This document shows, in pieces, positions 1,930 through 20,597 of a DNA stretch of 20,597 nucleotides. This DNA comes from Saccoglossus kowalevskii. Taxonomy: Eukaryota > Hemichordata > Enteropneusta > Harrimaniidae. Made by a program: the position numbers and the translations under genes. The stretch spans positions 39,562 to 60,158 of the forward strand of contig NW_003156257.1 of NCBI RefSeq assembly GCF_000003605.2. Reading direction: 5' to 3'. The first letter of the stretch is position 1, and the number at the start of each line of letters is the position of its first letter. A model generated the notes under the pieces. The model was not told the origin of the DNA. It saw only the letters and a program-made list of their open reading frames with translations, and did not search any database.

Positions 1930-2452
1930 TCATACAGATATTTTGCTGTTGTTATTGAGGTCTGGTTTATGTTTCAACTTTACAAATTTGGTTATATGGT
2001 TTATGCTAACCAACACGTCATTAACACCTCCCCTTGCTTCTTCAAGTGATATCTGTTTGGATGTTATAATGGATACCACTGGGGCTCTGGTTTTCGTACG
2101 AGGTAGATCATTCTTTTCTGCAATCATGAATTGGCATTATTGAAATTGTACTCTCATTTAGAAATTTCAGTGGATCATTGAACTGAGGAGTTATAGCCTT
2201 GGTAGTATGTGCATTTGCCTTAATCAAATGTGTTTCTTCACTGGAAATACAATATTGTATTTCATCGGGAGTTATTATAATTTCTAAAAGGCGAGGCCCA
2301 TTCTTGATTGTCATAACAATGTTATGTCCACTTGAGTAATTTGCCAATGCAGCCCACTTTTTTTGGTGGGTGCTCATAACAGTAGTCTCAAAACTTTTCA
2401 GTTCAGTTTTAATGCAAGATATTTCAGTTTGTGGGCTGTGTACTTTTTTCAC
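1930..2452 (-). pseudogene. unrecognised decayed ORF pair
   Basis: Two overlapping minus-strand reading frames, 2452-2108 (114 codons) and 2127-1930 (65 codons), are offset by a frameshift near 2110-2127. Together they could encode about 175 residues. The first is unusually long for this AT-rich window and looks protein-like (for example KNGPRLLEIIITPDE). It shows no motif I can assign: no zinc finger, no DDE triad, no membrane segment. It lies between the end of the Gmr1-type integrase and a second integrase tail, so it is probably part of an inserted or recombined mobile element. A decayed host exon cannot be excluded. Confidence 0.35.
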
Positions 2453-2464
2453 TTGCAGACAGGT

Positions 2465-3215
2465 TTACACTTGAATGTGCCTGTCACTGTTGAGAGAACC
2501 TAAGACTATACTGTGGCACCTCTCTATATGCAAAGAGTATAGCTGGTAGATAGAGGTCCCAGTCATTAGGGCGTTCATTGCACATCTTTTTCAACATTGA
2601 CTTAAGGGTTGCGTTGAATCTTTCAACTAAACCATTTCCCAATGGGGTGGTAGGGCTTTGTGGTTAGCTGCTTAATCGATATTAATCTGCTTACATCGTG
2701 CATCTGATCGGAGGTGAATTAACTACCCATGTCTCTTAGTACTTCGTGAGGAATACCTACCCGACTATACACCTCCTTCAATGCCTCAGCTACACTTTCA
2801 GTATCATTTTTTTAGAGGAATAGCATCCAGATACCTGGTCGCAAAATCAACTATAGTTAGTATACACCGGTATCCTCACTTTGACATATGTGTTATTGCC
2901 CTCACCAAATCTACTGCAACCCTTTGAAATAGGCATCTTACTAAGTGCCACCTTCTTAACCTTACCTTTCGGGATTGTCCGTTGACAAATGTCACAAGAA
3001 CAGCAGAACCTAGACACCATGGAGCCCTGGTCAAAAGAAGTTCCTCATTATATAAGCAGATGTTTTACCAATTCGCAAGTGCCCCATAGTCAATTCATGG
3101 GCAAGTTTCAACACTTTGGACCTCAACTGTGATGGTATAACCACGTGATTTATAGCTTCACCATAATTCATCTTGGAGCTTTGAAACATCTACTACAATA
3201 TACCATGTTGGGTAG
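2465..3215 (-). pseudogene. Gmr1-type integrase, broken
   Basis: The integrase inserts element cDNA into the host genome. The zinc-binding HHCC domain is visible as LAHELTMGHLRIGKTSAYIM, then CCSCDICQRTIPKGK about 30 codons later. The catalytic core follows: first Asp in ILTIVDFATRYLDAIP (about 2870-2825), second Asp in EVLRDMGS.FTSDQM (about 2740-2695, with a stop inside), and Glu in GNGLVERFNATLKSMLKK (about 2645-2590). CNERPNDWDLYLPAILFAYREVPQ then closes the core. Homology ends shortly after, near 2465, where 'GFSPFELLYG' would be expected. Several stops and at least four frame changes are needed to read it, so it cannot be functional. Confidence 0.85.
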
Positions 3216-3298
3216 TAAACCAAGACTTGTTTTCACCCCGGCAACTTTTGACCTCTCTCTGAGAAAGTTTAATGTCTTGTCCACAGACTGTGCTTCCC

Positions 3299-3720
3299 TC
3301 AGGCTACATTCACCATGATCCAAATCAATGCCAAATGCTTTATTGTTCTCTCAGCCCACTGTGCTCTGGTCACTACACTTACTTGCTCACACTGCCTTCC
3401 CCAAGTGGGATCATCATCTTCATGATTCCTGGCTCCCTGCAGGTCAACAATGATTACATTGTACAAAAGGTTTTCAAAACACAGCCTCAAAACGTTCTAC
3501 AATGAATGGGATACTAACCTCTAACCTCTACTATGGGCTGTTGGTACGTTCACGCAATTCCCACTGACTGTATAGCATGATACTTCCTTACCTTTGTACT
3601 GCTCTTTATTAACAAACTTTTTGTTGACAATTGCACCCCTGCATCCAGAATCTCTTAATACTTTACTTCTACTTCCCCAACATAGCTTCTGTAAACTGGC
3701 ATACTGATTCACCACTGGTA
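3299..3720 (-). pseudogene. retrotransposon aspartic protease and linker, broken
   Basis: The segment VLRDSGCRGAIVNKKFV (around 3660-3610) carries the DSG active site of a retropepsin, followed by YKGKEVSCYTVSGNCVNVP, the usual strand after the active site in this lineage. A second open segment, 3490-3299, contains VIIVDLQGARNHEDDDPTWG and then VVTRAQ. That is the characteristic linker after protease in these elements ('GN.PGAR.P.DPD...VTRAQ'). The two segments are in different frames with a break at about 3490-3521. The protease would process the Gag-Pol polyprotein. Confidence 0.75.
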
Positions 3721-3839
3721 CCAAACCCTTAATGATGTCTGTCTGGGTGAATGACCTTTTGAGTTGACATAATTTCCACACATGCGCCTTGTTGGAACTT
3801 GCACTGGCAGCAACATCCCTCGCTCGTTTTCCCACTGAT

Positions 3840-4125
3840 GGTATTTTCCAGCTTCAATAATGCCACACCAAATTCCTTTTTACCTTTTTGGCCACCTATA
3901 CCGCTCGCCCTATTCTCGCATTCTATTGCTTTATGACCCCATACAGGTGGCATGTACCTCGTCAGATGGCCTCTGATTGCCAGGCCTGGAATCTGCGGAC
4001 TTAACTGGATACTTATCCTTGTATCACATTCTCAGATACCGTCTTCCCTCTCACCTAGATAAACCTCTCGGCCAATTCTTTTACTGATGCTAAGCCCTTT
4101 TCTCTGAGGTCGCCAAATTACAAAA
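3840..4125 (-). pseudogene. gag 3' end with SCAN-like helix and zinc knuckle, broken
   Basis: Near 4100-4070 the minus strand reads GLASVKELAERF in interrupted frames, resembling the SCAN-like helical segment near the gag C-terminus of Gmr1-type elements ('..EMAE.YL.A.G'). Around 3955-3915 a CCHC zinc knuckle survives across a frameshift: the bases encode C-x2-C in one frame and GHKAIEC in the next. The rest of gag, upstream on this strand, is absent. Similarity stops at an A-rich run near 4125-4135, suggesting a deletion joined the gag 3' end to leader or LTR sequence. Confidence 0.6.
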
Positions 4126-4139
4126 AAAAACATGCACTA

Positions 4140-5040
4140 AGCTGCGAAGCCCGATCGTGATGACGTGTACTAGAATATTTCTAAAATACAAATATTAAGA
4201 TCATAGCACGCTCGCCAAGTGTCACAGGTTCGAGGCGTTATTATTCGCACACGAAAGTCACTCGCATACAATAAAAACACCGTGGTACATTATATCATAT
4301 TTATATACATAAAGTAAGAAAACAAAACTAACGTACATAACGGTTATATTTCTGAATTATGGATTCAATATGCATATTGTTCATTTAAATACAATCGTAC
4401 TCACGTATTCTATAGTCTGGCTTTAGGGATAATTGCCAAAATAACTTCACATTAATTATCAGTACTAAGTTCTTTCATCATTGCAAACCAAATTAATCAA
4501 TACCTATTCAATAATTACCCGGACGGCCACGCCAAAGTAACCAACAACTGATCCTGCGTTAACTTACAAATACATAGATAGAAATTACAATAAAATTACA
4601 CAGAAACGCTATACACTACCATACACGACTCAGCACTGGACGGTCAATGTGCGTGGTCCATACAGTTAGCGACAACTAGTGTGACATAAACAGCTGTCTC
4701 TCCCTCTCTCCAACATTTCCTGTATGGACCTTGCTAATATCAACTGCAGATATCCGCTCGTAACGTGCATATATTCGCCATACAGTAGTTGATCTAGAAA
4801 AACGTAGAACTGACAGCAAGTTCCAATCTGAGCCCCGGCTTCTACAGCGTAAATCATGCATAAACTTGACACTACGGAGTTACGACCACTCAGTGCGCCG
4901 ACCGCCACACCCCAGCTAGGTTGCCTGAAGGCGATAATAAAAAAATTACATTCACAGCCAAAATGCTGCATAAGCGTAGTACACAAAATGACCTACAATA
5001 GTTACTTTCCGTGACTGCACAGTTTCAGTCAGCAAACTGG
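4140..5040 (-). other. possible 5' LTR and leader of the Gmr1-type element
   Basis: This 900-bp non-coding stretch lies just upstream, on the minus strand, of the gag relic and keeps more CpG than its surroundings. On the minus strand there is a TATA-like TGTATATAAATA (about 4315-4300). About 80 bp later comes GTGACACTTGGCGAGCG (about 4230-4212), which resembles an LTR end (..ACA) followed by a 'TTGGCGA..' primer-binding site common in gypsy elements. I found no matching 3' LTR in the window, so the LTR start and identity are unproven. The 106-codon ORF at 4986-4666 overlaps it and resembles nothing I know. Confidence 0.3.
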
Positions 5041-5390: not shown

Positions 5391-6400
5391 ACCTGGGTAA
5401 TGGCTGCTCTCTGTTTGACTCAACTATTTGTCAAATGTACATCAACAAATTAGTGTGTTTAGTTACTGATGGACTAAATTAACTCTTTGTAGCTATAGAC
5501 AAACAATATTGACAAGAGAAGTATAATGTACTGGGTGGGCTCGTCTTTTAAATATTGATTTCAGGAAAAATAATTTCTCTAGTGCAGTGTGTAATATGAA
5601 ATGCAATTTGGTATTCCATTATACAACAAAGGAGGTACTATGCTTACCTCTAATTATTTGTCAGTTGCCAATAGTTTAATAGTATGTACTCAAATACTCA
5701 TCATATGAAATGTTCATTATTATTTAAATACCACATAAAGCCGGTTCACACCAGTTCATATTTCTTTCTAATTACCTTTCTCTTTATATAATTAAATGAC
5801 ATTTTCGTTATTTAATTTATTCAAGTTCCAAATTGTCCCGATTTAGTTCATGTGGTTGATGCTTACCCTTTAACTTATATTAAAATTATTATTTGTATGC
5901 GACATATATGGTTGACATTTACAAGACCATTTAGTTTGACACATTTCCATTACAAAGGCACGATTACATATGTTGTGATACAAGTTAGAAAAAATAAACT
6001 GAATAAATGCCAGTAAAAATAACTGGTTTTACCGTACCATTGGGACTTACCTTCATTAATGTGTTTGTATAAACTGCTTCCTGGATAACATCACTAAATG
6101 TGGGGTATACATTACGATGAAGCTAAAGAAAACCCCATAATTGGGAGTATTCACCAATATAACATTGGAAAATCATCTTTACCAATGCCGTGATACGGGT
6201 AAGAAATGTTATAATATATTAATTCCACAACAGAGAAACACATTTTTATTTTTTATTTTTTGATTACATTGAATTTAGGATATACTTTTTTCTTGCCTTT
6301 CCTCATTTCTACGTCTATTACAGGTGAATTTGAATGCCAGGATAAGCTTTAGAACTCAGAATTAATCTTCCACAGAACAAACGTTTATGCTTGTGAGCAA
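5390..6400. other. intergenic stretch with a possible splice acceptor
   Basis: No gene is seen. At 6288-6324 a long pyrimidine tract ends in CTATTACAG. This is a good splice acceptor about 80 bp upstream of the hydrolase start codon, consistent with an intron in that gene's 5' untranslated region. Confidence 0.4.
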
Positions 6401-6403
6401 ATA

Positions 6404-7314
6404 ATGGCAAGGACGCTGCAGCTCGTTATTACTGTCATGGTAATCATTTCCTGCTATGGTATATTCATCACATCATATTCAAATTTAGTTCAATTTAACC
6501 TCAAAGAATTTCAACAAAACACGACGATAAATATATACTCGCGTAAGTCTCTGTACCCAAAGGGCATCTTAAAAAGATTAGACAAGTTATCGGTGAGGCC
6601 GAACCAACTCCATGGCACGTTGAACATGACAAGCGACATGGTGTCGGCTGGATTTGCACATAATGGATCAATGCGTAGACTACATGATTTATTAAATGAC
6701 GTATTATTGCAAAATCGGTCTCTTAAAATTGGTATAATAGGAGGATCTATTTCGGCAGGTGGCGTTCTCGGGGGAGAAGAGTTTATTTATTCCAGTATAC
6801 TGGGAGATTTGCTGTGTCTTGTGTTGAATGGCCGTATTTAAATACATATCGCAGCAATAGGTGCAGCAGATAGCAGTTACTATAGATATTGTTTAAAAGC
6901 ACACCTCAACGCATCAGATATGGATATTATTGTATGGGAATTAGCTCTCAATGATTACCTTGTAAACATTGGGCCTGGTTTCCAAGAAGATTTGACGAGG
7001 CAACTCTTAGAATTACCACAGCAACCGCAGTTATTTTATGTTAATTTTGTCCATCGAATACTATTTACCACACCACGTCCATGCAGGGTCCTTGAAAAAG
7101 CTGGAAGCGATCCACTGTCTGTTCATTATGAAATACCGTCTGTAAGTTTGCCCAATGCGCTGTGCACATTGCTGAGACAAGCATCCAGGTCATATGCCAC
7201 ACAAAATGGCTGCGATATTTCTTGCTTATTTAATAGAAAGTGGTTTTCAACGTATTTTATCATCAGAACAAATCTATGGTATTGAAACACTTCCTCTTCC
7301 ATTCTTCAATGGAT

Positions 7315-7345
<31 letters not shown>

Positions 7346-7771
7346 TTCCCACAATGCAGGTCGTCATTAAAAACAAAAGAAGGCAATTATCATGCTTTGA
7401 CACCACTTCGATATGATAAAGATTGGGCGGTGATGGAACAAACAAATGAGGGTGAGGAAAGCAGAATAGATAGCAAACCATTATGGAAGTGTAAGAGTGA
7501 ACGGAAAACCATAGTATTTCCTATAAACAACATTACAATTATAAATGTACCAGTATTCAATGTGCATGTCGCGATGCTAGGCTGCATAGAATGTGGTCTT
7601 GCTAGAATTTTCGTTGATGCTATGAAATACACCAAAATCAATGCTTACTGGAAATGGAACGTTCCAAGAATTTTCAATATTACAGCTAACTTGCGAACAG
7701 GTAGGCATAATGTGACGATAACCAGTGTTTCAAATCAACTTATACGACTGATTGCTGTTATTGCTGGATAG
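6404..7771 (+). pseudogene. SGNH/GDSL-type hydrolase, broken
   Basis: SGNH hydrolases are mostly esterases or lipases acting on acyl esters; the substrate here is unknown. Residues 5-22 form a hydrophobic signal anchor, so the protein would enter the secretory pathway. Block I is IGGSISAGG (Ser about residue 115), block II AIGAADSSYYRYC, block III WELALNDY (Asn) and block V DKHPGH (Asp/His). A C-terminal region follows to 7771, including NYHALTPLRYDKDW and GRHNVTITSVSNQLI. Three lesions break it: TAA at 6839-6841 in an otherwise continuous frame, a one-base shift near 7175 just before DKHPGH, and a frame change at the CA repeat 7315-7343. The stretch 6404-7771 has no obvious intron. It could be a pseudogene, or a real gene with assembly indels in low-complexity sequence. 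Confidence 0.8.
7315..7343 (+). repeat. (CA)n microsatellite inside the hydrolase frame
   Basis: Twenty-nine bases of pure CA repeat separate LPLPFFNGS (one frame) from CRSSLKTKEGNYHALTP (another frame). Length change in this tract probably caused the frame loss. An intron ending at the CACAATGCAG just after it is a weaker alternative. Confidence 0.9.
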
Positions 7772-8089: not shown

Positions 8090-8563
8090 TTGTCGTATCG
8101 GAAAAATACAAGTTTATGTTCAAGTTGGTGCTTAAAGTGTCATCCACAACTTGGACACACTTTTTGCCGATTATGAAGTGTATGGAGAATGCAAATATGA
8201 TGAAATTGTTGAACCTCACTAAACGAGATATGGAGAAATATACCAAAATGATGTTCTGCCGAGAACCACAGGAAGGACTAATGTAATTTTACTATAATAA
8301 CATACATTACAAGGTAAACCAATCGATCCAAAATAAGCAATTTGATGATCTCATCAAGAATATTGGATTACGCAATCACAGCGTGATAGCATATAACCCT
8401 TAGGGCCATGCAATATATAATATAACATTTATAGAATTTGTGAAGATGGTCATTCACCATCATTCATATGGGGAATATGTGGACCTTGGTGGGCAGTTTT
8501 ATAATATCAAAGATCATATGTATGTTTATTTGAGTAAGATTGTATCAGTCATTTTGAACATCT
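8090..8563 (+). pseudogene. CUB-like domain fragments, broken
   Basis: Two decayed plus-strand segments look like CUB domains, extracellular beta-sandwich modules. The first (about 8100-8286) reads IQVYVQVGA, stop, SVIHNLDTLFADYEVYGE, CKYDEIVE, stop, then RYGEIYQNDVLPRTTGRTN. This matches the CUB pattern 'L.F..F.....C.YD.(L/V)' followed by 'G.(Y/F)CG..LP'. The second (8339-8563, one stop) reads GHAIYNITFIEFV, then HHHSYGEYVDLGGQFY, similar in style but lacking the cysteines. The fragment lies 0.3 kb downstream of the hydrolase on the same strand, so the two may once have belonged to one extracellular gene or array. This is motif similarity by eye only. Confidence 0.35.
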
Positions 8564-9173
8564 AGGCGAGAGCGTGGTTTACTTTAACCTATAGACACCC
8601 GGAACAAGTTGCGTGGAAAGCAAGATGTTGGTGATGGTGGTTATTAAATTGTGTTGTACTACAGCTGATCCTAGTTCAATGATTGTTTCAACACTATAAG
8701 AGTAGGTCATACAGAAATTACTTAATAGGTTCATACAATAGTGTTTGTCCCTTATTATTGAAATTGGTAGCATCGGATAGTAATCATGTACTATTTTAAG
8801 TTAATTTGTGAAATTGTTTTGTGATCTTTTATTTTGCTGTGCTTCATGTTTCATTTTCATTCTGGCTTTGTGGTAATTCCATGTTTCACTTCTATAGTGT
8901 ATACGCATTAAATGCTTTATCGTGCCATACAAATATCGCCCTCATTCTCAAACCAACTGTCACGCCGTAACCTTAAGTTTACAGTAATCTAAATTGACTT
9001 AATTCGAACAGTGACGAAATTTTGGAACAATACAGCATGTCATAATATGTCATGACACAGACGGGATAGACACAGAAGAGATGGCATCCAATTGTATGAT
9101 CGATGATTCTATATCTTGCAATAACGATAATAACATTATGTGTTATGATGTCACTACTTTAATGACCCATCCC

Positions 9174-9209
9174 AAGCACCACTCGTGGACGAAATAATTG
9201 TATGTACTC
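9174..9209 (+). repeat. dispersed repeat, copy B
   Basis: Direct-orientation partner of 130-165. The last 25 bases are identical and the AAGCACC upstream is shared. The copies are 9.04 kb apart and bracket the retrotransposon relic and the hydrolase pseudogene. With no longer flanking match they are more likely two copies of a short interspersed element than LTRs. Confidence 0.7.
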
Positions 9210-9819
9210 CTATAATTACGTTTAAATGCACCAACAAGTTTTCATGACTTGTTTTAAAGGATTGTTTTCAAATCAATGACCACTACTCTGTATGTGCTTA
9301 CTGTTTATGAATGTTGGGGTGAGCGTCGACCAACCCCATCAACTCCTATTATGAAGCATATGCATTGATCCCTATTAGAAAGACAAGTTTGATGTATTTA
9401 AAATGGAAATAGTGATATCATAGGACATTTTTATCACAATTTACATTTTCAATATTTTCTATATCTAAATATAGTTCGCTTTGTGATATACATTTTTTTT
9501 TTATTTTAACCAATTGGATACAATTTGAACTATTAATCAGGTAACATTACTAAGAGAAAACACTCTGTGTGGAATATACCACATAAGTCTTTCTATATAA
9601 TTGTTTGTTGAATGGCCTAAACATATGATTTAATCGTTCTGGTACGATTGGTGTAAAATAAAAGTTGGATTATTGCGTCAAATCTGACTTTATTATATTT
9701 AATACACTTCGTGGGTCCTGTTAATACTGAAACCCAACTTCAACAAAATAGCGCCTCCAAGATGTGGATGATAAATGACTCAAACAAAAACTTACAATGT
9801 AAGTAAATCGTATACCTTT

Positions 9820-9847
9820 GTGTATACGTATACATGCGCATATGTAT
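9820..9847. repeat. alternating purine-pyrimidine tract
   Basis: Twenty-eight bases alternate perfectly between purine and pyrimidine and include the palindromes GTATACGTATAC and ATGCGCAT. Such tracts can adopt Z-DNA under supercoiling. No gene lies nearby. Confidence 0.6.
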
Positions 9848-10652
9848 TCTTAACTAAAGATACAGTACGCATAAGCAATATTCAACAAAAGTGCTGCACT
9901 TAAACTTGTGTGTTAATTGAACGTAGTCATATTACTGTAGTTTGTACAACATATGTGTTTCATAACGCATGTCAAAATGCGATATTGTACTTGGACGAAT
10001 AAATTCAATTGAATGATATAATTTAATATATATATGAAACAAATATATGATAGTTGACATCATGTGCTAAACGGATATCCATGCATTTAATTGAATTCAG
10101 TTTATTAAGTTGATAGTATTGATAATTTGGAGACAAACTATTAAACTTTGAATGTTCATTTTTTTAGTATAGCCAATTACAAAATTGAATTTACTGCTTG
10201 GGTAAAGTTTGATACGATTCATCGTAAATTTTGCAAATTAATAATCACTTAACTGTAGTACATCCTGTATATTAAAAATAATCTAAAATAAAATACATTA
10301 TACAATAACATACAACATGACAAAAGTCATCAGGTCCATAAGACGCACAATTCACCAACAGTGTAAGTATAGACTAGCTTGAACCACTCTACAAGTGTCT
10401 GTACAAGTAGTGGTACCAAGTGTTCGGAATGGGTAAGCGTCCTTTAGTCGCATGCTACACCTGTTACACCCGTCAAGATGATACCAATAACTCCAGAAGC
10501 ATGTAGCCATCTGGGCAAGCTATAAAATAGTCATATCCAGGAATACTGTTTCTTATCATTTACGAGACATACATGTCAAATTTTGAAATTAAATGCTTGT
10601 ATCTTCAAGCTTTTAAAAGTTCCAACAAGCACTAATTTTCAGTATCCTTGCT

Positions 10653-11341
10653 TCACCAGCTTTCAAGCCAGTGTCTTACCCGAAAATCGTCGTACAATAC
10701 ACAAGCTCTACAATATCTAAGAAGTTGTGAGATATAAATTCCATAAGCTGGGGATGATGGAATATTGTTAGACAAAAGATAATTAACAATTTCAAATTCA
10801 AAATCATCCCTTTTGTCATACAGTTTAGTATATAGACCATTCGGTCTAATTTGGAAAAACAAATCAACGTAGGAAGCAGAATCCTTGTTCTCGGTGGTCT
10901 CTTTAATTTAAAGCTCACGCAGATATATCAGGTCTAGTAATTTCGAAATGCCCTGATTATTGAAGCTCAGCAGATCATCAATGTATCTGTGTTTGTTGTT
11001 AAAGCGCTTTGCAAGTTGTTTCTTTCCTGATTGATGCATGAATTCTGAGACTGCATGAATTCTGCCTCATATGAATATAAGAATAGGTCAACAAGAAGTG
11101 GTGCACAGATGTACCCATAGGAATGCCAACAGTTTGTCTAAAAGTCGATCCACCAAATTTGACAAAAATATTATCAATGAGAAAAGTGGTCATAGATGTA
11201 ATATCTTCTTCTGTATATTTATTTCAAGCATCTTCATTGTTACTAAAATATCCAGAGTTATGTGTAATAACAATAAACTTATACCTACGACTGCCATTCT
11301 TCTTAAAGATGGCTTGTTGCACTAGAGATGTTAATCTAATT
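10653..11341 (-). pseudogene. Penelope-like reverse transcriptase, 3' half
   Basis: Minus-strand RT relic beginning at RLTSLVQQAIFKKNGSRRYK (about 11332-11280). After an in-frame stop it continues with FLIDNIFVKFGGSTFRQT, then the palm motif VGIPMGT (11127-11110). The catalytic metal-binding motif RYIDDLLSFNN follows at 10988 onward, then LYDKRDDFEFEIVN, IPSSPAYGIYISQLLRYCRA and a short tail to 10653. These blocks fit the RT family of Penelope-like elements ('GIPMGTNCAPLLADLFLYSYE', 'RYIDD', 'LYDKRDDF..PIVN'). A frameshift just after GIPMGT and further stops break it. It lacks the fingers segment, which lies 5.7 kb away at 17226-17007. No GIY-YIG endonuclease was seen. Confidence 0.8.
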
Positions 11342-11345
11342 TTAA
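11342..11345. repeat. left target-site duplication TTAA
   Basis: TTAA directly abuts the left inverted repeat and is matched by TTAA at 17003-17006. In the split RT it corresponds to the Leu-Lys codons of the target. Confidence 0.85.
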
Positions 11346-11363
11346 AGATGCAATATGGACGAG
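11346..11363 (+). repeat. left terminal inverted repeat
   Basis: AGATGCAATATGGACGAG is the exact reverse complement of 16985-17002. Beyond 18 bp the match continues as AATTGA against AAATTGA with one gap, then is lost. Confidence 0.9.
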
Positions 11364-11479
11364 AATTGACATTTATTTCACTCTTTAATAAAGTGAATTA
11401 ACCACACATAATAGTAGTTTACCTATTCAATCTAAGAATCATGCTTTCAAAATGCCGATATGTGTTTGTAAACATAGTT

Positions 11480-11580
11480 TGAATCCGCCGCCATTGCTGG
11501 AGATATGGGTCACGTGATTCCGAACGCAGAAAATTATGTCATAGCGGTAGTAGGTCATCACAACAATGGCCGCCGCTTCC
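11480..11580 (+). promoter_or_regulatory. promoter-like motifs at the left end of Kolobok
   Basis: Within 100 bp there is GCCGCCATTG (11487-11496, YY1-like), the E-box CACGTG (11511-11516) and the inverted CAATGGCCGCC (11564 onward, YY1-like). The last includes an ATG in good context (ACAACAATGG), giving a 20-codon ORF that starts MAAASRTAAHS. This is a local GC- and CpG-rich patch in an AT-rich element, consistent with a transposon promoter. Function is inferred from motifs only. Confidence 0.35.
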
Positions 11581-11783
11581 AGAACTGCAGCCCATTCCCT
11601 TTCGGAATGTTCGTGGCAACATTCTTGAAAACTGTGAAATGGACACTAAAAAGTTAGTTTCACAAAGAAATGCTTTTACACAGGTGTAAACACCGCTATT
11701 ACATCGGCAAACACGTCTGGCATAATACACAGGTGTTGCATCGGTGTTGATTCACTGTTGACAGCTCTTCCCGGCGTGAAATG

Positions 11784-11860
11784 TATAAAGGGACACAAAA
11801 ATGAAAGGAGGACTGCCAGTCGGTTAGTGCTGGGTTCTTTTGTCACCATCCGGAATACCG
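11784..11860 (+). promoter_or_regulatory. TATA box and possible first exon, plus strand
   Basis: TATAAAG at 11784-11790 is followed about 70 bp later by a strong splice donor, ACCG|GTAAGTAATG, cutting after 11860. Spacing suits a short untranslated first exon starting near 11815. Candidate later exons, judged from splice consensus, are 12735-12903, 13129-13247 and one beginning at 13952. Confidence 0.35.
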
Positions 11861-12734
11861 GTAAGTAATGAATAATGCTTTTCTATCCAAACTTTGCATG
11901 CAACTGTATGATTTTTAAAGAAAATACCTCTACGGTAGATCATTTAGTACAGCACATTGTTTTCGTTACCGTGGGGCAAAGTTGGTTAGCGGCCGGAGAG
12001 GGGGTTCTCTGAATAAAATATGGTATGCATGCTGAAGTTACTAGTATTTGTCACGTATACGCGTGTACAGTAATAAAGTCTATGTTATGTTTCTGCACTT
12101 GAAGGGGTATAATTTCACAAAAATAAGTGTTTAGAGGGGCTTTTTGAAAAGCTATACTTCAGTGTGGGTACCAGGTTGGACTTTGAGTACCCCCTGGAGT
12201 TAGCATTGTGGGAAACATCGTGGGAAGGGAGGAAAATTCATTGTCGGTATTTGAGGATCGTGGCTAGGTCTGAGAATTGAGCATACTCATTGGATCTCCC
12301 CAGTTTACAGACATTTTGAGAACGCAGTAAATTGAATTAACTTGTTTATGGTACAAGATTGTGTATTCTTATTATACGGGCAGTTCGTTCGTTTTATGTC
12401 CAACAAGGCTTTATTGCCGCTTGGGAGTTGAATTAAACAAAATGTTGTTATGTACGTTTGTTTCTATAACTGGATATGTGCAAGTACACATATATCAATT
12501 CTAAAGTGTTTCTTGATGTTTAATTTACATTTCTGTTGATGACATGCTTTTAAATGACCATTTTCACATAATTCATGGTTCAAAACTAATTTGCCATTGG
12601 CGACTGGCAAAGAATTATCAGAAGCCCAGTCGTTAATATAAACCAAATGAATTTTTTTGTTGAGTGGTTTTGTAACTAAAATAAAATGTTACGACCTTTC
12701 TGATGCATTTTGTGTACTTTTTTTCATTATCCAG

Positions 12735-12903
12735 ACAAATTTTACATAAATGCCATCATCAAGTGATGAGATTCAAAGGTTGTACAAGAAAAAATAGGTT
12801 CAAAAAGATGTGGAAGAGGCAGAAAGTCAGTGAGAGGTGGTGAGGCAGTCAGAAGAAAATCATGTAAAGAGAGAGAGAGAAATGAAGGGAACATTGAGAA
12901 ATA
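12735..12903 (+). pseudogene. possible second exon of a plus-strand Kolobok gene, decayed
   Basis: A pyrimidine-rich acceptor (TTTTCATTATCCAG) precedes an ATG at 12750 that reads MPSSSDEIQRLYKKK, a stop, VQKDVEEAESQ, a stop, then EVVRQSEENHVKREREK. The composition is highly charged, like a coiled-coil or basic region, and a donor (GTGAGT) follows at 12904. Further acceptor/donor pairs bound 13129-13247, and a strong acceptor (TTTTTATTACAG) precedes 13952. No frame stays open across these pieces. Autonomous Kolobok elements can carry a second protein besides transposase, and this may be its remnant; a non-coding transcript is also possible. Confidence 0.3.
12868..12881 (+). repeat. (GA)n short run
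   Basis: A run of AG units within the possible plus-strand exon. In one frame it encodes the REREK portion of the charged segment. Confidence 0.6.
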
Positions 12904-13934
12904 GTGAGTAATGCAATCATTTATAATTTATTTTAAATATACAAAAAATGTATAAAATATAGGTCTCTGGTAACAAATGATTTTCAACAACGATGAAAGG
13001 ACCAGTTACTGCACAAATCCCTACTCTCCGTGGGACCCACCCAATACGAAACCCACTTACTGCGAAGCTACTAGTAACAAATGAATATATATGTAAATAT
13101 TAAAATTTGTTATTTTTTACAATGGTAGACAACCTGTGAAGCCATGACAAGAGAGCAGTGAAGTGATTATTTAATCGTTAACCAAGCATGAAGTCGACAG
13201 ATGCCATCACTACCAGAATGCATCTGTTGCGGATGGCACAAACAAGAGTAAGTTCAAATTCTTATTTCACACTGTCAGGGATTGATTATTGAAAACAGAA
13301 AATCTGAACAAGAAAACAGAAAAAAAAATCTGCACACCCAGAATAAACAAAAAAATTAACACAAAACTAAGTGATAGAAAAATAGTGCTTAGCTTTTTCC
13401 ACCACTGCCCCACCCAGAATTTCTAATGATCTATCCCTAATCATTTAAGAATACATTGTAGAAATAAAACCGTTCAGAAACACCGGTACTGTATTACATG
13501 TAGTAGTGCGTAACATTACAGGTATGACTGTCATAAAAGTTGTATTTTTTATGATCAGAATACAATAAATTCAATTTTTGGTTTAAACTTGATTCTACAA
13601 TAGAGTAACTACTCATCTGCAAATGTGTACCCTAGAATATTTTTGTTAGCTAACCATTGGTTTTCTTAGCAACAATATATCTGAGTATTAACTGCTTTAA
13701 GAACGGAATAAATTATGAGAGTGTGGTGTAATTTGAATACTACAGGTTGAAGGTAAATATTGCTGTTCATATGATTTATGCAGGATAATTTTACTGTTGC
13801 ATTTCTGTTCTGGGGTGTAAGCTTCCTTATAGTAAAATAGTGTGGTGACCTTTTAAAATAACATTAGTGTAGCTAAATGTAGTACATTAATTATTTCTAG
13901 GGGTATCAAATAAAAGATCTTTTTAAATGATAGT

Positions 13935-13940
13935 TTTATT
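13935..13940 (-). terminator. possible polyadenylation signal of the transposase gene
   Basis: On the minus strand AATAAA lies about 150 bp past the last transposase stop (14089) and is followed by a second AATAAA-like run. Position and orientation suit a 3' end. It overlaps a plus-strand splice acceptor, so the two units would converge here. Confidence 0.3.
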
Positions 13941-14088
13941 TTTTATTACAGGAATTTAGAGAGATGATTATGCACAAGGGTATCCTAGCCACTACAAGGG
14001 GATAAGATGTATTACAACTACAAACTACAACAACTGAACAATTTGCATGAAAATGTATGATTTGTGTGTTTAATGCGCTAGGATGTTT

Positions 14089-16745
14089 CTGTTTTACATA
14101 ACACTTGCTCCTCTGCCAATGTAGCTATTGCAGGTGGTGGTATAAGAGCAATGTCAGCAGAAATGTGTCTCCGGTCATCAGGTTCATGTACCATCGGTCT
14201 ATACATCCATATCTGTCAGCCATTCTGAGATCCAGACTGTTGGTTTTTAATTGTGCGATATGAGAATAGGTCTTGTCAGTTTTGATTGGTGCCACCAACC
14301 ATCAAGCATTTTAGATTCTTTTGTACCTAGATATAATAAAAAATACATTATATAAATGGCACTGTAACCACATCAACATACATACAGTACTTTGTAATAT
14401 TAAAGTTTTGGTTCAAATCATAATATTTATATCTGTACATATTTATGCATTAAGATACAACATTCTTAGAAAATATAGCTAATTTTGTACTCACCATTCT
14501 GTTTTTTCCTTATTTCTCTATTACCAGTATAATGTACATTGCGGTATATTACTGCAAGACGGTTCCTAGCTTTATAAACTGGCAGTATGTATACATGCAA
14601 ACCATTTACTGACATATTGCAATATTTGCTGTTGAAATGTTTCAAGCTCACTTATCTCCCTGTAAATGTAGTAAAAAAATGATTTCCTAGCTTCATACTT
14701 TCATCAATATAAATTCCTTCTAATATAGAGACTTGTTCAAAATATCTTGATCACCTAGCATTCAAGTAGTAAGATATCTTCTTCAGAAAGTGTTTATCAA
14801 ACACAATATGACCGCAATGCCTTGGTTCCCCTCTGCAACCACTCGCCATCACCGCTAGCTTCTTCTGTTAAAGGGACATGCTGGCACTGACCAGTTCCAG
14901 TCTTGTCCACAATCAAGGTTCACTCATGTTCATTGCCAACATGGCATAATAAGCTACTCCATATTCCCTGTAATGAGAATAAATATAAAACTGTCTGCAA
15001 TTTGCCTTCATTTGGATTTCCATTTCGGGACACAATAGCAGTCATTGAAACAAAGTATTACCATGTACATTAAACCAAGATTTTTTTCAAACAAGGGAAG
15101 AGGGGCGCAGCTCTCTCAAGCCATAAAATTATCAAAAACTCCACACCCTGGTAGGGAGAACCCTATCCCCCACTTGGTGGCACTGCTGAATTGCAGTGCT
15201 CCCTCTTGCTGTTTCTTTTCTAGAGATCAACCCTGTTAAACAAAAGCCATTGTCAATGACATACTCCCAGTTTGTAGTAGCCTTTTACGACGGACAAGTC
15301 ACAGTACAAGATGAGAGGATGGCGATTACAGCGATCATAGCATAGGGTGGGGAAAGTCATCTATGTATATAGATATATCTGTAAAATGTTAATAGTAGTC
15401 ACCTAATTAGAATGTAGCAATGGTTTTTTAAAGCAACAATTTAGATAAATTTAAAAACAGGTGTAATGTAAGTGTGTAATATGTACAGAAACAAGAGTTG
15501 AAGTTATCCATGCTGTTTATTTAAATTGAATGATCTGGCCCTTTTATTTACATTTTAATATTTACATTTTTTTTTATTTGTCAAAATTATTGTGAATTTG
15601 TTTATCATAAACTACAACAAATTTTCCTAATCAATCTGATGATATTACTATTACTCTACTCAACAAAGAAAAGTGTTTTATCTATTTTACCATTACAACA
15701 ATCTCAAAATAAATAGATTAATTGTAAATTGATGTACTATGACTTTGGAAATGAAACCTCAAAATAGAACAAAAATACAACACCAGCAAATGCCTACATG
15801 ACTCTGAGGCATTTAAATCACCTACACACTCATGGACGGGCAGGCATTTGTACAAGACTACCTAAATTGATAATTTCCTTGGTTAGAATCCTAGCAGTAT
15901 GTCATATGTTCAAGGAATGTTTAATTTCTGAATATATATTGTTTTCAAAAAGTAAATGAAGATGTGATTAGGTCATCATTCAAACCATCTATTAATAACA
16001 AAGTACGATTTAAAAATAAGTTGTATAGTAAAATATAGTCCAAGAAAAGCAATGTGCCTTAAAAGCAATACTATATTTTTTCATAATAATGTCACCAGGT
16101 AACAACATCATATATACTATGGCTTGCCAGTTCATTTATTCAGCTTTGACTAGATTGCTTTGAATCTGGACAGAATTTAAATTTACTCATCTCAGCTCCA
16201 ATTTGTGGATGAGCATCAGTCACAATCAACAAGCAGCTGCAAGCCACCTAGAAACTGACGCCGCCAACCCATGTAAAGGTACATAGATACTGTAAACAAA
16301 CAGTACCCGTGATGGGAGACAATACAAATAATACTCCGATCAACAATCAGTTACTTGACAATACAAAAAAACAAAAACAGAAAAATTGACATCTCAAACA
16401 CCGAAATTACCACATGCTTTAAACTTCAAAAGCATGTCAGTCTACGTTCAATGGATAGCTACTGGTCTGTCCTGTCGGTGTGCATATTTCGGTGACGATT
16501 GGCAACTGGCTGACGACTAACTGTTACCACTGAATTGACATCAGTAACGATAAATGTAAACAACGAATTATTAATGTGAAATATCAATGAGTGGTGGTCT
16601 GCAAACACCAAGAGTCGTAGTCCAAATTAAACAAAACATATGTATAATCTGCGTATCAGTCAACTTACTGATCCATAACGATGGTACGTTCTTTACCGGA
16701 GTTTGTAACGTAAGGTCATCCTTTACTTTTCCGCAGCGCGGCCAT
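14089..16745 (-). pseudogene. Kolobok transposase, broken and partly missing
   Basis: The transposase would cut at the element's ends and paste it at TTAA. Minus-strand pieces, 5' to 3': a candidate first exon 16745-16669 (MAALRKSKG, stop, PYVTNSGKERTIVMDQ, then donor GTAAGT); 16289-16140 after a TTTACAG acceptor, with LLIVTDAHPQIGAEM holding the second acidic catalytic residue; 15041-14920 with SRNGNPNEGKLQ and IWSSLLCHVGNEHE, stop; 14905-14810 with CQHVPLTEEASGDGEWLQRG; 14800-14753 with HFLKKISYYLNAR; 14651-14466 with YKARNRLAVIYRNVHYTGN; and 14325-14089 with WLVAPIKTDKTYSHIAQL and, in another frame, ISADIALIPPPAIATL. All these fit the C-terminal half of Kolobok transposases in order. The block holding the first catalytic Asp ('DSPGH.A.Y..Y') and the 'DIWH' block were not found. 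Multiple stops and frameshifts make it inactive. Confidence 0.75.
15095..15240. repeat. GC-richer island with hairpin inside Kolobok
   Basis: This segment is visibly less AT-rich than its surroundings. It contains the perfect inverted repeat CACTGC-TGAATT-GCAGTG at 15180-15197 and a direct run of short motifs such as CACCCTGGTAGGGAGAACCC. It interrupts the region where transposase blocks would be expected, so it may be a short inserted element. No A or B box of a tRNA-derived SINE was clear. Confidence 0.3.
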
Positions 16746-16780
16746 ATTTGCTCCGAATTTGTACTGACGCATGCGCAGTA
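16740..16780 (-). promoter_or_regulatory. NRF1-like and YY1-like motifs at the right end of Kolobok
   Basis: GCATGCGCA at 16769-16777, within ACGCATGCGCA, matches the core of NRF1 sites. GCGGCCATATTTG at 16738-16750 resembles the YY1 site and overlaps the candidate transposase start codon, an arrangement common in animal housekeeping promoters. It sits correctly to drive the minus-strand transposase. Inferred from motifs only. Confidence 0.4.
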
Positions 16781-16984
16781 TCAACCTATGGCGTTGCAAT
16801 TTCTGTGTTTACATTGATGTTGCCTGTACGTACAATAACAAACTGAAGAAGCCTGTTTTGTTGTTTCACTGAACGAATACTATTTAGTGCGTCACAAAAG
16901 TTATGCTTTTAGATTCTGATAAATCACATTACAATCTCTTCTATAGCATGTAGTATCAAACGACTGTGATTAAAGTTTCAATTT

Positions 16985-17002
16985 CTCGTCCATATTGCAT
17001 CT
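16985..17002 (-). repeat. right terminal inverted repeat
   Basis: Exact reverse complement of 11346-11363; marks the right end of the Kolobok element. Confidence 0.9.
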
Positions 17003-17006
17003 TTAA
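17003..17006. repeat. right target-site duplication TTAA
   Basis: TTAA abutting the right inverted repeat, matching 11342-11345. Confidence 0.85.
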
Positions 17007-17226
17007 GTTTATTATGTGGAATTTTAGTGTACAATGTAGAAAAATCAAATGTATGAATAGAACTGTACCTAATGCTGCACTTACTTTGCCAGCTATCTAA
17101 CAGTTCCTTTGAGTTCTTAAGTATCCACATTTGGTTAAGACCACTGGTTTCATAAACCTTGCCACAATAGCGAAAAATGCCAGTTTTAATGGTAGTCAGA
17201 ATGGTGGTTAACAATTGTGACAAGCG
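17007..17226 (-). pseudogene. Penelope-like reverse transcriptase, 5' portion
   Basis: The minus strand is open from about 17223 and reads LSQLLTTILTTIKTGIF, then GLNQMWILKNSKELLDSWQS, then SIHTFDFSTLYTKIPHNKLK. 'TFDFSTLYT.IPH' is the first conserved acidic RT motif in the Penelope-like family, and 'NQMWILKNS' precedes it at the usual distance. Family similarity ends exactly at the TTAA where the Kolobok inverted repeat starts, and resumes without gap or overlap at 11341. Upstream of 17226 the frame hits a stop and similarity is lost, so the copy is 5'-truncated, as is usual for target-primed retroelements. Confidence 0.85.
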
Positions 17227-17229
17227 TTA

Positions 17230-18600
17230 TACCATATATGATATATAAAAGTGCAGTTGATAATCGCACAAGTTTGTAACAATCGTATTGTTCAAGGATC
17301 GCAACCAGGACACATTACATCACATTCGCATGTCTATTTAATTTCTTATGTCTTTCTTGTGGAAATACCCAACGCAAATTTGTACAAGCTGACAGTCACT
17401 CAGTGCTTTCGTAATCAGATGCACGCACACGGGTAGACAGTTCTAGAACACATACACATCCTAGAACTTAGGTTCGACACAATGAGAAACACGAATGGCA
17501 AATGAAAAATGAATTTTACAACCCAGTTTATATAATAACGAGCCTTGGCCTATAATACGTTCACCCATACTGTTTATATATACCTAGTCCGTATTATTAC
17601 ATTGTTTGAGTGTTCCCAGTGTCACCTAGGTATAATAGGTTCAACAATGTATGCAATATATATTGTGTACGTCTGACGCAATTTAACGGTATATATCCCA
17701 GATTACAACGACCAAAAACAGCACGAAGTAAAGTCAAATATTCCAAAACACCTGTACACCCGAAAAATGAAGGGAATCGGTAATTTTTAAAACATTCCAA
17801 TTTCATTAACAAAAGTGAACTTCATGATCACACACACTGTATGGTGACATCATAATTTAAACAACTTTCCACTCTACATCACCACAAATACATTCGCCAC
17901 AGTTAAGTTTTGTTAAAGCTCGAACCAATTTATTTTAAAACAAAATAAAATGTTCTGCATATTGTAATACATGGTAATATGCTCCGTAAAACCTTCACTT
18001 TTTATATACTTGAGGAAATATAAACGACAGGTGACATCAAATATGACACAGACGTGAAGATATCAATATTTAAAAAAATAACCTTTATCTATTCAATTAA
18101 AGCATCTCTCAATTAAAAATTACTATTCTATAAGCAAATATCCTTCAAGGTAATTCCGTGTCCCCATCCCGACGAACAATTGTACCAAAACTCATTTGGA
18201 AGTTCCCTTTGCAGTTTAAATTTTTTTGCATATTTCGCTGAATTTGTGTTCCCAAATTATACCTGGCCCAATGCACTATTAGAAATCTACACTTTGTATC
18301 ACCACAGCATCCCACAAACAATTTCGCCAAAGGTAATTCGAACAAAATTAATAGGCTCATGGGCGGCACCAGCACATCAACTCTAATAAACCATTCAATA
18401 TATCATTGAGAATGTCGCCCTCAATATTATAATTCGTTGTATCAGGATGCATACATGTATATTGGATGGGAACTGGGAATTAATATCATATAACAAGTGA
18501 TGATGTAAATTGCATCACGTTGAAAATGCTATAAACAAATATCCAGAGTTAAGTTACCAGCTCTATAAATTGGTGAAGTTCACTGAAGTAGACGTGGATT
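17230..18600. other. AT-rich stretch without a recognised gene
   Basis: The longest frames are a 71-codon ORF at 17812-17597 and a 76-codon ORF at 18375-18145 (both minus). The latter lies over a plus-strand ORF of similar length, and neither resembles a known family. No RNA gene or transposon end was seen. Confidence 0.5.
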
Positions 18601-18629
18601 ATTTATTGACTATTGTTTGTTTTCAAGGA

Positions 18630-18890
18630 CACTAGGGTTGTGTCTTGGGAGGAAGAAGGTAGATGGCTGTGGAGGGTGTTATTAAAGAATGGGTAATGAA
18701 GCCAGAAAACATGAAGTTCAAAATTGTCTCTAAGTGGCATTGCCCTCTCCAGATCGACATCACTTTTTACAAACTATACGACAACATTGTCATGCGTTGT
18801 GGAACACATAATAAGGATGTGAAGCATGGATACTACATACACAGTATGCCAATAGCTTTATTGAGGTTAGTATGTAGACATATCTTATGA
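18630..18890 (+). CDS. possible exon of unknown gene
   Basis: A pyrimidine-rich acceptor (TTGTTTGTTTTCAAG) ends at 18629. It is followed at 18663 by an ATG opening a 75-codon frame (MAVEGVIKEWVMKPENMKF ... KWHCPLQIDI) that ends with TGA at 18888-18890. A second frame, 18887-19099, overlaps its stop. The protein has a balanced composition but no motif, signal peptide or repeat that I recognise. It may be a decayed exon or a chance ORF. Confidence 0.2.
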
Positions 18891-19099
18891 ACAATGTTAA
18901 AGTATTAAAAGAAAATGTTCATTGGACGCAACAAGCACATATTTTTTGGCCTAAACCCACCCACCATGTATATTGTGGCTATAGGATGTCTGTACACGCT
19001 TTCTCCCGTACTGAACTTTTGCAAGCCACTAAAAACTTCGAAATTATACAGCGCAACCAGCGTATTTTCCCGGCTCTATACGTTAAGCGGTTAAGATGA

Positions 19100-20597
19100 T
19101 CAAAGTAATGTTTTTATCTAATGATGCAAATGAGGCATTGGTATCCAAGCATGTTAGGTAATATCATGACACTTCGTTGACATTATATGTGACGTAATGG
19201 AATAAAATGTGCGTTGGAAGTTGGGGTGCAGATTCAATCGTGTTTTTTCACTTCTATGTTGCGTTTAGTTGATTACTCTTTGGTCAAAAGCAGTGCGTAC
19301 CAATTTGCCGCGCTTCTACTGCAGCAGAATTGATGGTGATGTTTGCGTATAAATCCTACGGCAGAATTTAAATATCATCTACGCCGTGAAACCAAGGCTA
19401 TGTATATTTTCATGCAGATCGTTATACTAAACTAAAATAATTAGTAAAGTGTTCGATAAAAATTATATGTAATTTACCACCATGCTACTAGGATATAGAA
19501 AAAAGTTTCTTTTTTGTGTTCTTTTTCTTTAAGCATTTCTTATATGAGGTGTAGCATTATCATTTGTTATCCATGTAATAAAACATATTAATAAAACATG
19601 GCACTCTTAAAGCACACGGGTGGGTTCATGAAACAAGCAAGCGATTAAAATGATTACTCTAGAAATGCATCATGGTTTATTTTTTGTGTTTTTTTGTTTA
19701 TTAATTCACTTGATTGCCTGATACAGAATACAGTGTATCATCCCTAAGAAGAAACAAATCTTATTATTGATATAGTTGAGGTACTTAAATGCCTCAATTA
19801 GAAAGCACTTTGTTTTGTGTAGTTTCCCTGCAATTTTTGGATGGAGGGTTTGATACATTCCGTCAGTTACATTGTTCATCCAATAAATAAGGTATACCCG
19901 TCGTGTTCATTGCAACAGCTGCAATCGTTTTAATAATACAATAATCATAACTAAAACTCAGTAGGGTAATGGTAGAGATTACAATATGTACAGAGTAAGC
20001 TGCTTAGCTGCTTGACTAGACTTCAATCATTCAAATTAGTGTTTGAGATATAGCACGAAGAATTTACAAAAAATATGACAATAGAAAAAGGTAAATTGAA
20101 TTAGCACATGACTTCAATCCCTAGATAAATATTACTATACACAATTAACATTACAATTTATACGCATTTTTCACGGAAATGTAGCAAAATGTTGTAAAAT
20201 AACACATTCACAAAGTAATATATCGTCGTAGTGTGAGACATGAAATTGAACACAGCGCCCTCTTGAGACGATTTTTGGTAATTTTGAGATTTTTCTGTGA
20301 AATGATTTTTCTGACATTGTGAAGTGCCCTATTGTTGTAATTGCATATCTTTGATAATGCAATGCTTGGATTTAACACTATTTTTATCGGAGAACAATTT
20401 CTTCATTTACTTTCTTTTGACCGGTCAAAGGTCATGTTTCAGCATCCGTCCATTTTTAATGTTGTCTTCTGCTAGGTTGGCAGAAGATTCTTCTTCTTTT
20501 CTGAGTTAATTTTGGCCATCAATCATTCATTTTGATGCCAATGTCACTGGTAAGCAATGTTTTATTATTTTGTATTTTCTTCAGCATTGTATTTCAT
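19100..20597. other. gene-free AT-rich stretch
   Basis: Only ORFs of about 60 codons occur, on both strands, with no recognisable content. No repeats longer than homopolymer runs and no RNA gene were seen. Confidence 0.6.

Follow-up and report, generated by a model that had tools for sequence, protein, structure and literature searches.

The stretch of DNA analysed here, hereafter the window, is 20,597 nucleotides long (G000:C4577:39562-60158) and comes from the hemichordate Saccoglossus kowalevskii, whose genome was searched as a whole (572,110,611 bases in 4,830 contigs). It contains a DNA transposon copy of 5,657 bp, bounded by terminal inverted repeats (TIRs) and by TTAA on each side, which interrupts the decayed remains of a reverse transcriptase (RT) gene read on the minus strand, and which carries a small repeat of its own. 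The features of the locus, in window positions, are the following, each with what it rests on.

10268-11345, minus strand: downstream part of the RT relic, with motifs QTVGIPMGT and YIDDLLS, frameshifted (motifs and ends of other copies).
11342-11345, no strand: left copy of the TTAA target-site duplication (single TTAA at the matching point of the paralogue L052).
11346-17002, plus strand: putatively Kolobok-like (TTAA) DNA transposon copy, 5,657 bp, with no detectable transposase (ends, empty site, relatives and a six-frame Pfam scan without match).
11346-11363, plus strand: left terminal inverted repeat, AGATGCAATATGGACGAG (sequence, inverted-repeat search and genome-wide recurrence).
15078-15236, no strand: nested repeat of ~155 bp, with approximate edges and no target duplication defined (alignment with relatives and genome search).
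16985-17002, minus strand: right terminal inverted repeat, 18 bp identical to the left one (sequence, inverted-repeat search and genome-wide recurrence).
17003-17006, no strand: right copy of the TTAA target-site duplication (sequence and empty-site alignment).
17007-17228, minus strand: upstream part of the RT relic, with motif ...TFDFSTLYTKIPHNKL (similarity to two paralogues stops at 17228).

Positions 11346-11363 are the reverse complement of positions 16985-17002 over all 18 bp, with TTAA outside both, and the element thus begins with AG and ends with CT, i.e. it has 5'-RR/YY-3' termini. Together with the flanking TTAA, these ends form the top-ranked inverted repeat of the window (29 nt, 93% complementary). 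When the 18-bp termini of all TTAA pairs at least 1 kb apart were compared, the best match in the window was 18/18, against a maximum of 15 and a mean of 13.1 in 100 mononucleotide shuffles of the window.

An uninterrupted version of the target was found by searching the genome with the left flank (10400-11345) and the right flank (17003-17260) separately. On contig C1299 (locus L052), the match of the left flank ends at position 207793 and that of the right flank starts at position 207790, and the four bases of overlap are a single TTAA (89% identity over 300 bp on the left, 88% over 226 bp on the right). There are two TTAA in the window and one at the uninterrupted L052 site, i.e. a 4-bp target duplication. 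A second paralogue, L053 on contig C3976, also lacks the insert; its bases at the site itself are lost, hence it does not bear on the single TTAA. In the flanks compared with paralogues and copies (8500-11345 and 17003-19500), similarity of L052 to the window is confined to 10319-11345 and 17003-17228, and for this reason the empty sites look paralogous, not allelic. The window flanks, 300 bp on each side, match RT-family loci only, and none of the other transposon copies compared.

The element also has a family. TTAA followed by the terminal repeat, sought as a 21-base pattern with at most 2 mismatches, occurs at 280 places in the genome, against 1 for the same pattern read backwards. When the left end and the right end of the element were used as queries (E up to 0.001), each gave 15 matching pieces, the window's own counted in. 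Among the fetched loci, 14 other ends were matched up to an extremity of the query or to one base short of it (C179 was too, but was not fetched), and TTAA directly adjoins 12 of these 14 ends, which were placed by sequence and not by TTAA. In one of the 12, L043, the repeat starts with T; the two exceptions are the right end of L037, which has GCAA, and L041, which has an additional A. The locus L034 (C3850) holds a copy of 7,605 bp with both ends present, diverged from the window copy by 0.05-0.09 (Kimura two-parameter distance, by segment) and enlarged by a block with a different reverse transcriptase. Four of 20 loci (L055, L066, L067 and L071) have two facing repeats ~290-365 bp apart, and are miniature copies (miniature inverted-repeat transposable elements, MITEs), in some of which the outer TTAA or the repeat is altered.

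Two of the loci have further particularities. The block in L034 (~2373-4826), absent from the window copy, has an RVT_1 match (E 5.8e-21) and is read as a retroelement nested in L034. L035 (917-6864; G000:C2601:133116-139063) has the left-type end on both sides and TTAA at each end, and is a fold-back form whose inverted arms of ~1.4 kb are 82-92% identical.

The nested insertion with clean boundaries is confirmed by these results, and is ordinary biology of a known kind. An earlier note, written from the letters of this DNA, had described perfect inverted ends abutted by TTAA with 5,657 bp between the two TTAA copies, and had drawn from them exact boundaries, a TTAA duplication and an order of insertion. 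The first description is correct, and the rest is borne out by the empty-site paralogue and the genome-wide family. As for the checks it had suggested, TTAA-bounded copies exist elsewhere in the genome, and an empty RT site is present, with one TTAA, at a paralogous locus of the same genome. We considered as well that the insert might be a piece of host or foreign DNA kept by chance, with coincidental inverted ends. The failure to find coding capacity in it, detailed below, would agree with this; the excess of TTAA-flanked repeats over the reversed pattern, the long copies with the same ends and the empty site do not. The family and the empty site refute this explanation, to which we give practically no credit.

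What remains of the target can be followed on both sides of the transposon. When 5,657 bp and one TTAA are removed, the minus-strand frame continues from one flank into the other, and its 147 codons contain 1 stop. The peptide encoded there is homologous to an uninterrupted peptide of L052, a locus which has stops and a frameshift nearby. On the downstream side, four of the fetched copies (L053, L025, L026 and L032) end at 10268-10270, and three others stop further inward (L028 at 10291, L052 at 10319, L027 at 10339). On the upstream side, similarity to the window ceases beyond 17228, whereas L052 and L053 keep matching each other, and because of this difference the RT relic, a decayed one, is taken as a 5'-truncated copy.

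The relic retains stretches resembling RT motifs A, B and C, spread over several frames and read by eye as TFDFSTLYTKIPH, QTVGIPMGT and YIDDLLS. In L075, a relative with an open frame of 230 aa, the motifs are TYDFSTLYTTIPH, QTIGIPIGTNCATLLADLFLYSYDAEF and YIDNVLS. We take the order and wording of the window motifs, and the motifs of L075, to be Penelope-like; Pfam did not confirm it. The RVT_1 profile gave a weak match in one frame of L052 (15.5 bits, under the cut-off of 29.6). The window pieces were without RT match, and so was L075, where three unrelated matches below cut-off were the only ones (E up to 10). A search of the PDB with an RT paralogue returned nothing. The GIY-YIG domain has 4 matches genome-wide, and none of the 4 shares a contig with the 32 matches of the RT family. 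The C-terminal GIY-YIG endonuclease is absent in some Penelope-like elements, and Penelope-like GIY-YIG domains may escape Pfam. The relic is comparable to Penelope-like elements in the order and wording of its motifs, as read by eye, and in being 5'-truncated; it differs from them in that its family has no GIY-YIG found nearby and an RVT_1 match below cut-off. The target element is probably Penelope-like.

These observations correct the earlier note in part. The frame is indeed kept across the join. The flanks, presented there as two halves of one RT, do lie on the same strand with a continuous frame, but they do not make up a whole RT, the copy being already 5'-truncated. As for the label 'Penelope-like', the motifs seem to agree with it, whereas the RVT_1 match is weak or absent and GIY-YIG is found on other contigs.

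Taken together, the simplest account is that a Kolobok-type, TTAA-specific cut-and-paste transposon inserted at a TTAA within a truncated Penelope-like copy, duplicating the TTAA, and we hold this to be very probable. Several results weigh against it, however. No open reading frame (ORF) of 100 aa is found within the insert, and a frame of 104 aa (11087-11401) touches it but lies mostly in the left flank. A six-frame Pfam scan of the insert with E up to 1 matched 0 families, hence no transposase, and in the same scan of the relatives L036 and L051 with E up to 0.1, no transposase was detected. The sole matches there, both in L051 and both below cut-off, were to the Midasin lid domain and to TNF. 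A DDE transposase, which in Kolobok usually comes with a THAP domain, was thus seen neither in the six frames of the insert nor in those of L036 and L051; decayed spliced exons could be missed in this search, and non-autonomous Kolobok elements do not have the enzyme. Neither a codon-phase test nor the translated comparison between copies gave a clear coding signal; in the latter, 11 element sequences yielded no convincing coding stretch and no stop-free conserved exon set. The 'Mutator-like' family PF20700 has 50 matches on 29 contigs across the genome, and none of these 29 is among the contigs of 100 listed terminal-repeat places, out of the 280 counted. Finally, the Penelope label of the target lacks profile support at the cut-off.

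The codon-phase test, made on 176 overlapping segments of 120 bp, did give a few low p-values, the best being 2e-7 at ~12396-12545. In the six top-listed segments, the implied frames had 1-5 stops per 40 codons, except for one stop-free minus-strand frame near 12306. Low p-values were rejected as a coding signal, because the frames they imply are mostly interrupted by stops.

Could the insert nevertheless still be autonomous and contain a spliced gene overlooked by the searches? By eye, a TATA-like box is present near 11785, followed near 11860 by a GGTAAGT donor, and the ATG at 12750, which opens the peptide MPSSSDEIQ..., is preceded by an acceptor-like site; moreover, the Pfam scans of the insert covered frames and not spliced products. 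Starts of the same kind (MPSSSDEIQ or MSSSSDEIQ) recur in L034, L036 and L050, and may be the remnant of a first coding exon. When the exon-like stretch 12640-12930 was used as a query, all 12 matches fell on contigs already known from the element-copy searches. Against autonomy, stops are seen by eye in the window frame after the ATG at 12750, and neither a transposase match in the two relatives nor the conserved exon set just mentioned was found. We therefore think it very unlikely that this copy could move by itself; most likely, it is non-autonomous or decayed.

The transposon itself carries a nested repeat. Five relatives aligned with it (L036, L037, L050, L051 and L041) do not have this repeat of ~155 bp, and 15124-15235 recurs elsewhere in the genome at 86-93% identity. 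In the simplest reading, it would have arrived after the transposon family had spread. The locus is thus made of three nested layers, the RT copy, the TTAA transposon and the ~155-bp repeat.

The following history may be proposed. The retrotransposon copy would have come first, already 5'-truncated. The TTAA transposon would then have inserted at a TTAA within the RT copy, the target being duplicated; as its TTAA and AG/CT termini suggest, cutting and joining would have been carried out by a DDE transposase acting on the 18-bp ends. This copy being presumably non-autonomous or decayed, the transposase would have been supplied in trans, or lost since. The smaller ~155-bp repeat would have been added to this copy, its aligned relatives being without it. 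The locus yields the exact ends and target site of a transposon family, together with a relative order of events, which aids annotation of the genome; it does not change the understanding of any mechanism.

Elsewhere in the window, a nearly open frame of ~450 codons with in-frame stops (6398-7771, plus strand) is probably a lipase-like pseudogene. It has weak matches to two families, both below cut-off: GDSL lipase with 13.4 bits against 32.9, and DUF2102 with 17.3 against 25. On the minus strand, 2462-3282 matches an integrase zinc-binding domain at 26.3 bits (cut-off 25.5) and an integrase core below cut-off (22.2, cut-off 32.6), and was read as a decayed piece resembling a long terminal repeat retrotransposon. 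A direct repeat of 31 bp, 94% identical, is found at 138-168 and 9182-9212, 9,044 bp apart. Neither Rfam nor a tRNA search gave any match in the window.

Which superfamily the transposon belongs to has to be judged from its ends and target site, because a transposase was not found; on these it is most likely Kolobok-like. Of the 'Kolobok-type' assignment made in the earlier note, the TTAA and the RR/YY termini stand, whereas no transposase was found in the element and the PF20700 contigs do not coincide with the listed repeat contigs. A TTAA-specific transposon of another superfamily (piggyBac, Sola3 or an undescribed one) might account for the same locus, as elements other than Kolobok also duplicate TTAA and the enzyme has not been found. 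Sola3 also uses TTAA, and piggyBac termini are CCY. In Kojima and Bao 2022 (PMC9587614), Kolobok elements have TTAA duplications and 5'-RR/YY-3' termini, and this RR/YY rule separates them from piggyBac. The AG...CT termini of the present element are of the Kolobok type and not of the piggyBac type, with which the TTAA target is shared. In Table 5 of PMC6004289, all full-length Xenopus Kolobok copies end with AG and, with one exception, have an intact TTAA on each side. Another superfamily is thus unlikely. We consider it a little more doubtful still that the AGATGCAATATGGACGAG end marks an undescribed TTAA lineage, with long members of ~5.7-7.6 kb, a fold-back form and miniatures; such a lineage, if real, may be driven by a transposase type outside Pfam. 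One literature search with the terminal repeat, limited to its first 13 bases, gave no printed description of this end; its one result was a paper on piggyBac delivery in the pig.

Two PF20700 loci of the genome were noted. L074 (1277-3533; G000:C809) has a Mutator-like transposase ORF, then a frame with the remainder of the domain and a YqaJ exonuclease domain. On G000:C739 (~1-34000), PF20700 matches recur every ~3-4 kb in one orientation, perhaps as a tandem multimer like that of KolobokP.

Several known systems can be set beside these elements. The gene layout of L074 resembles that of KolobokE, in which, according to PMC9587614, a transposase is followed downstream by a lambda-exonuclease-like nuclease. 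L074, the best PF20700 locus (6 kb), could not be tied to the present ends; its TTAA-abutted inverted ends do not exceed those of a shuffled control (1 against 0-2 in 20 shuffles). With KolobokP, as described by Kojima and Bao 2022, the window element shares short TIRs (18 bp at most) and RR/YY termini; the long terminal direct repeats are absent here, its two ends sharing an inverted terminal stretch only. Compared with Kolobok in general, it differs in that no transposase, THAP domain or accessory gene was found. T2-MITEs are taken, in PMC6004289, as presumably non-autonomous members of Kolobok. The present family resembles Kolobok and such T2-MITE-like members in its TTAA duplication, its AG...CT termini, its short TIRs, and its long copies accompanied by miniatures of a few hundred bp.

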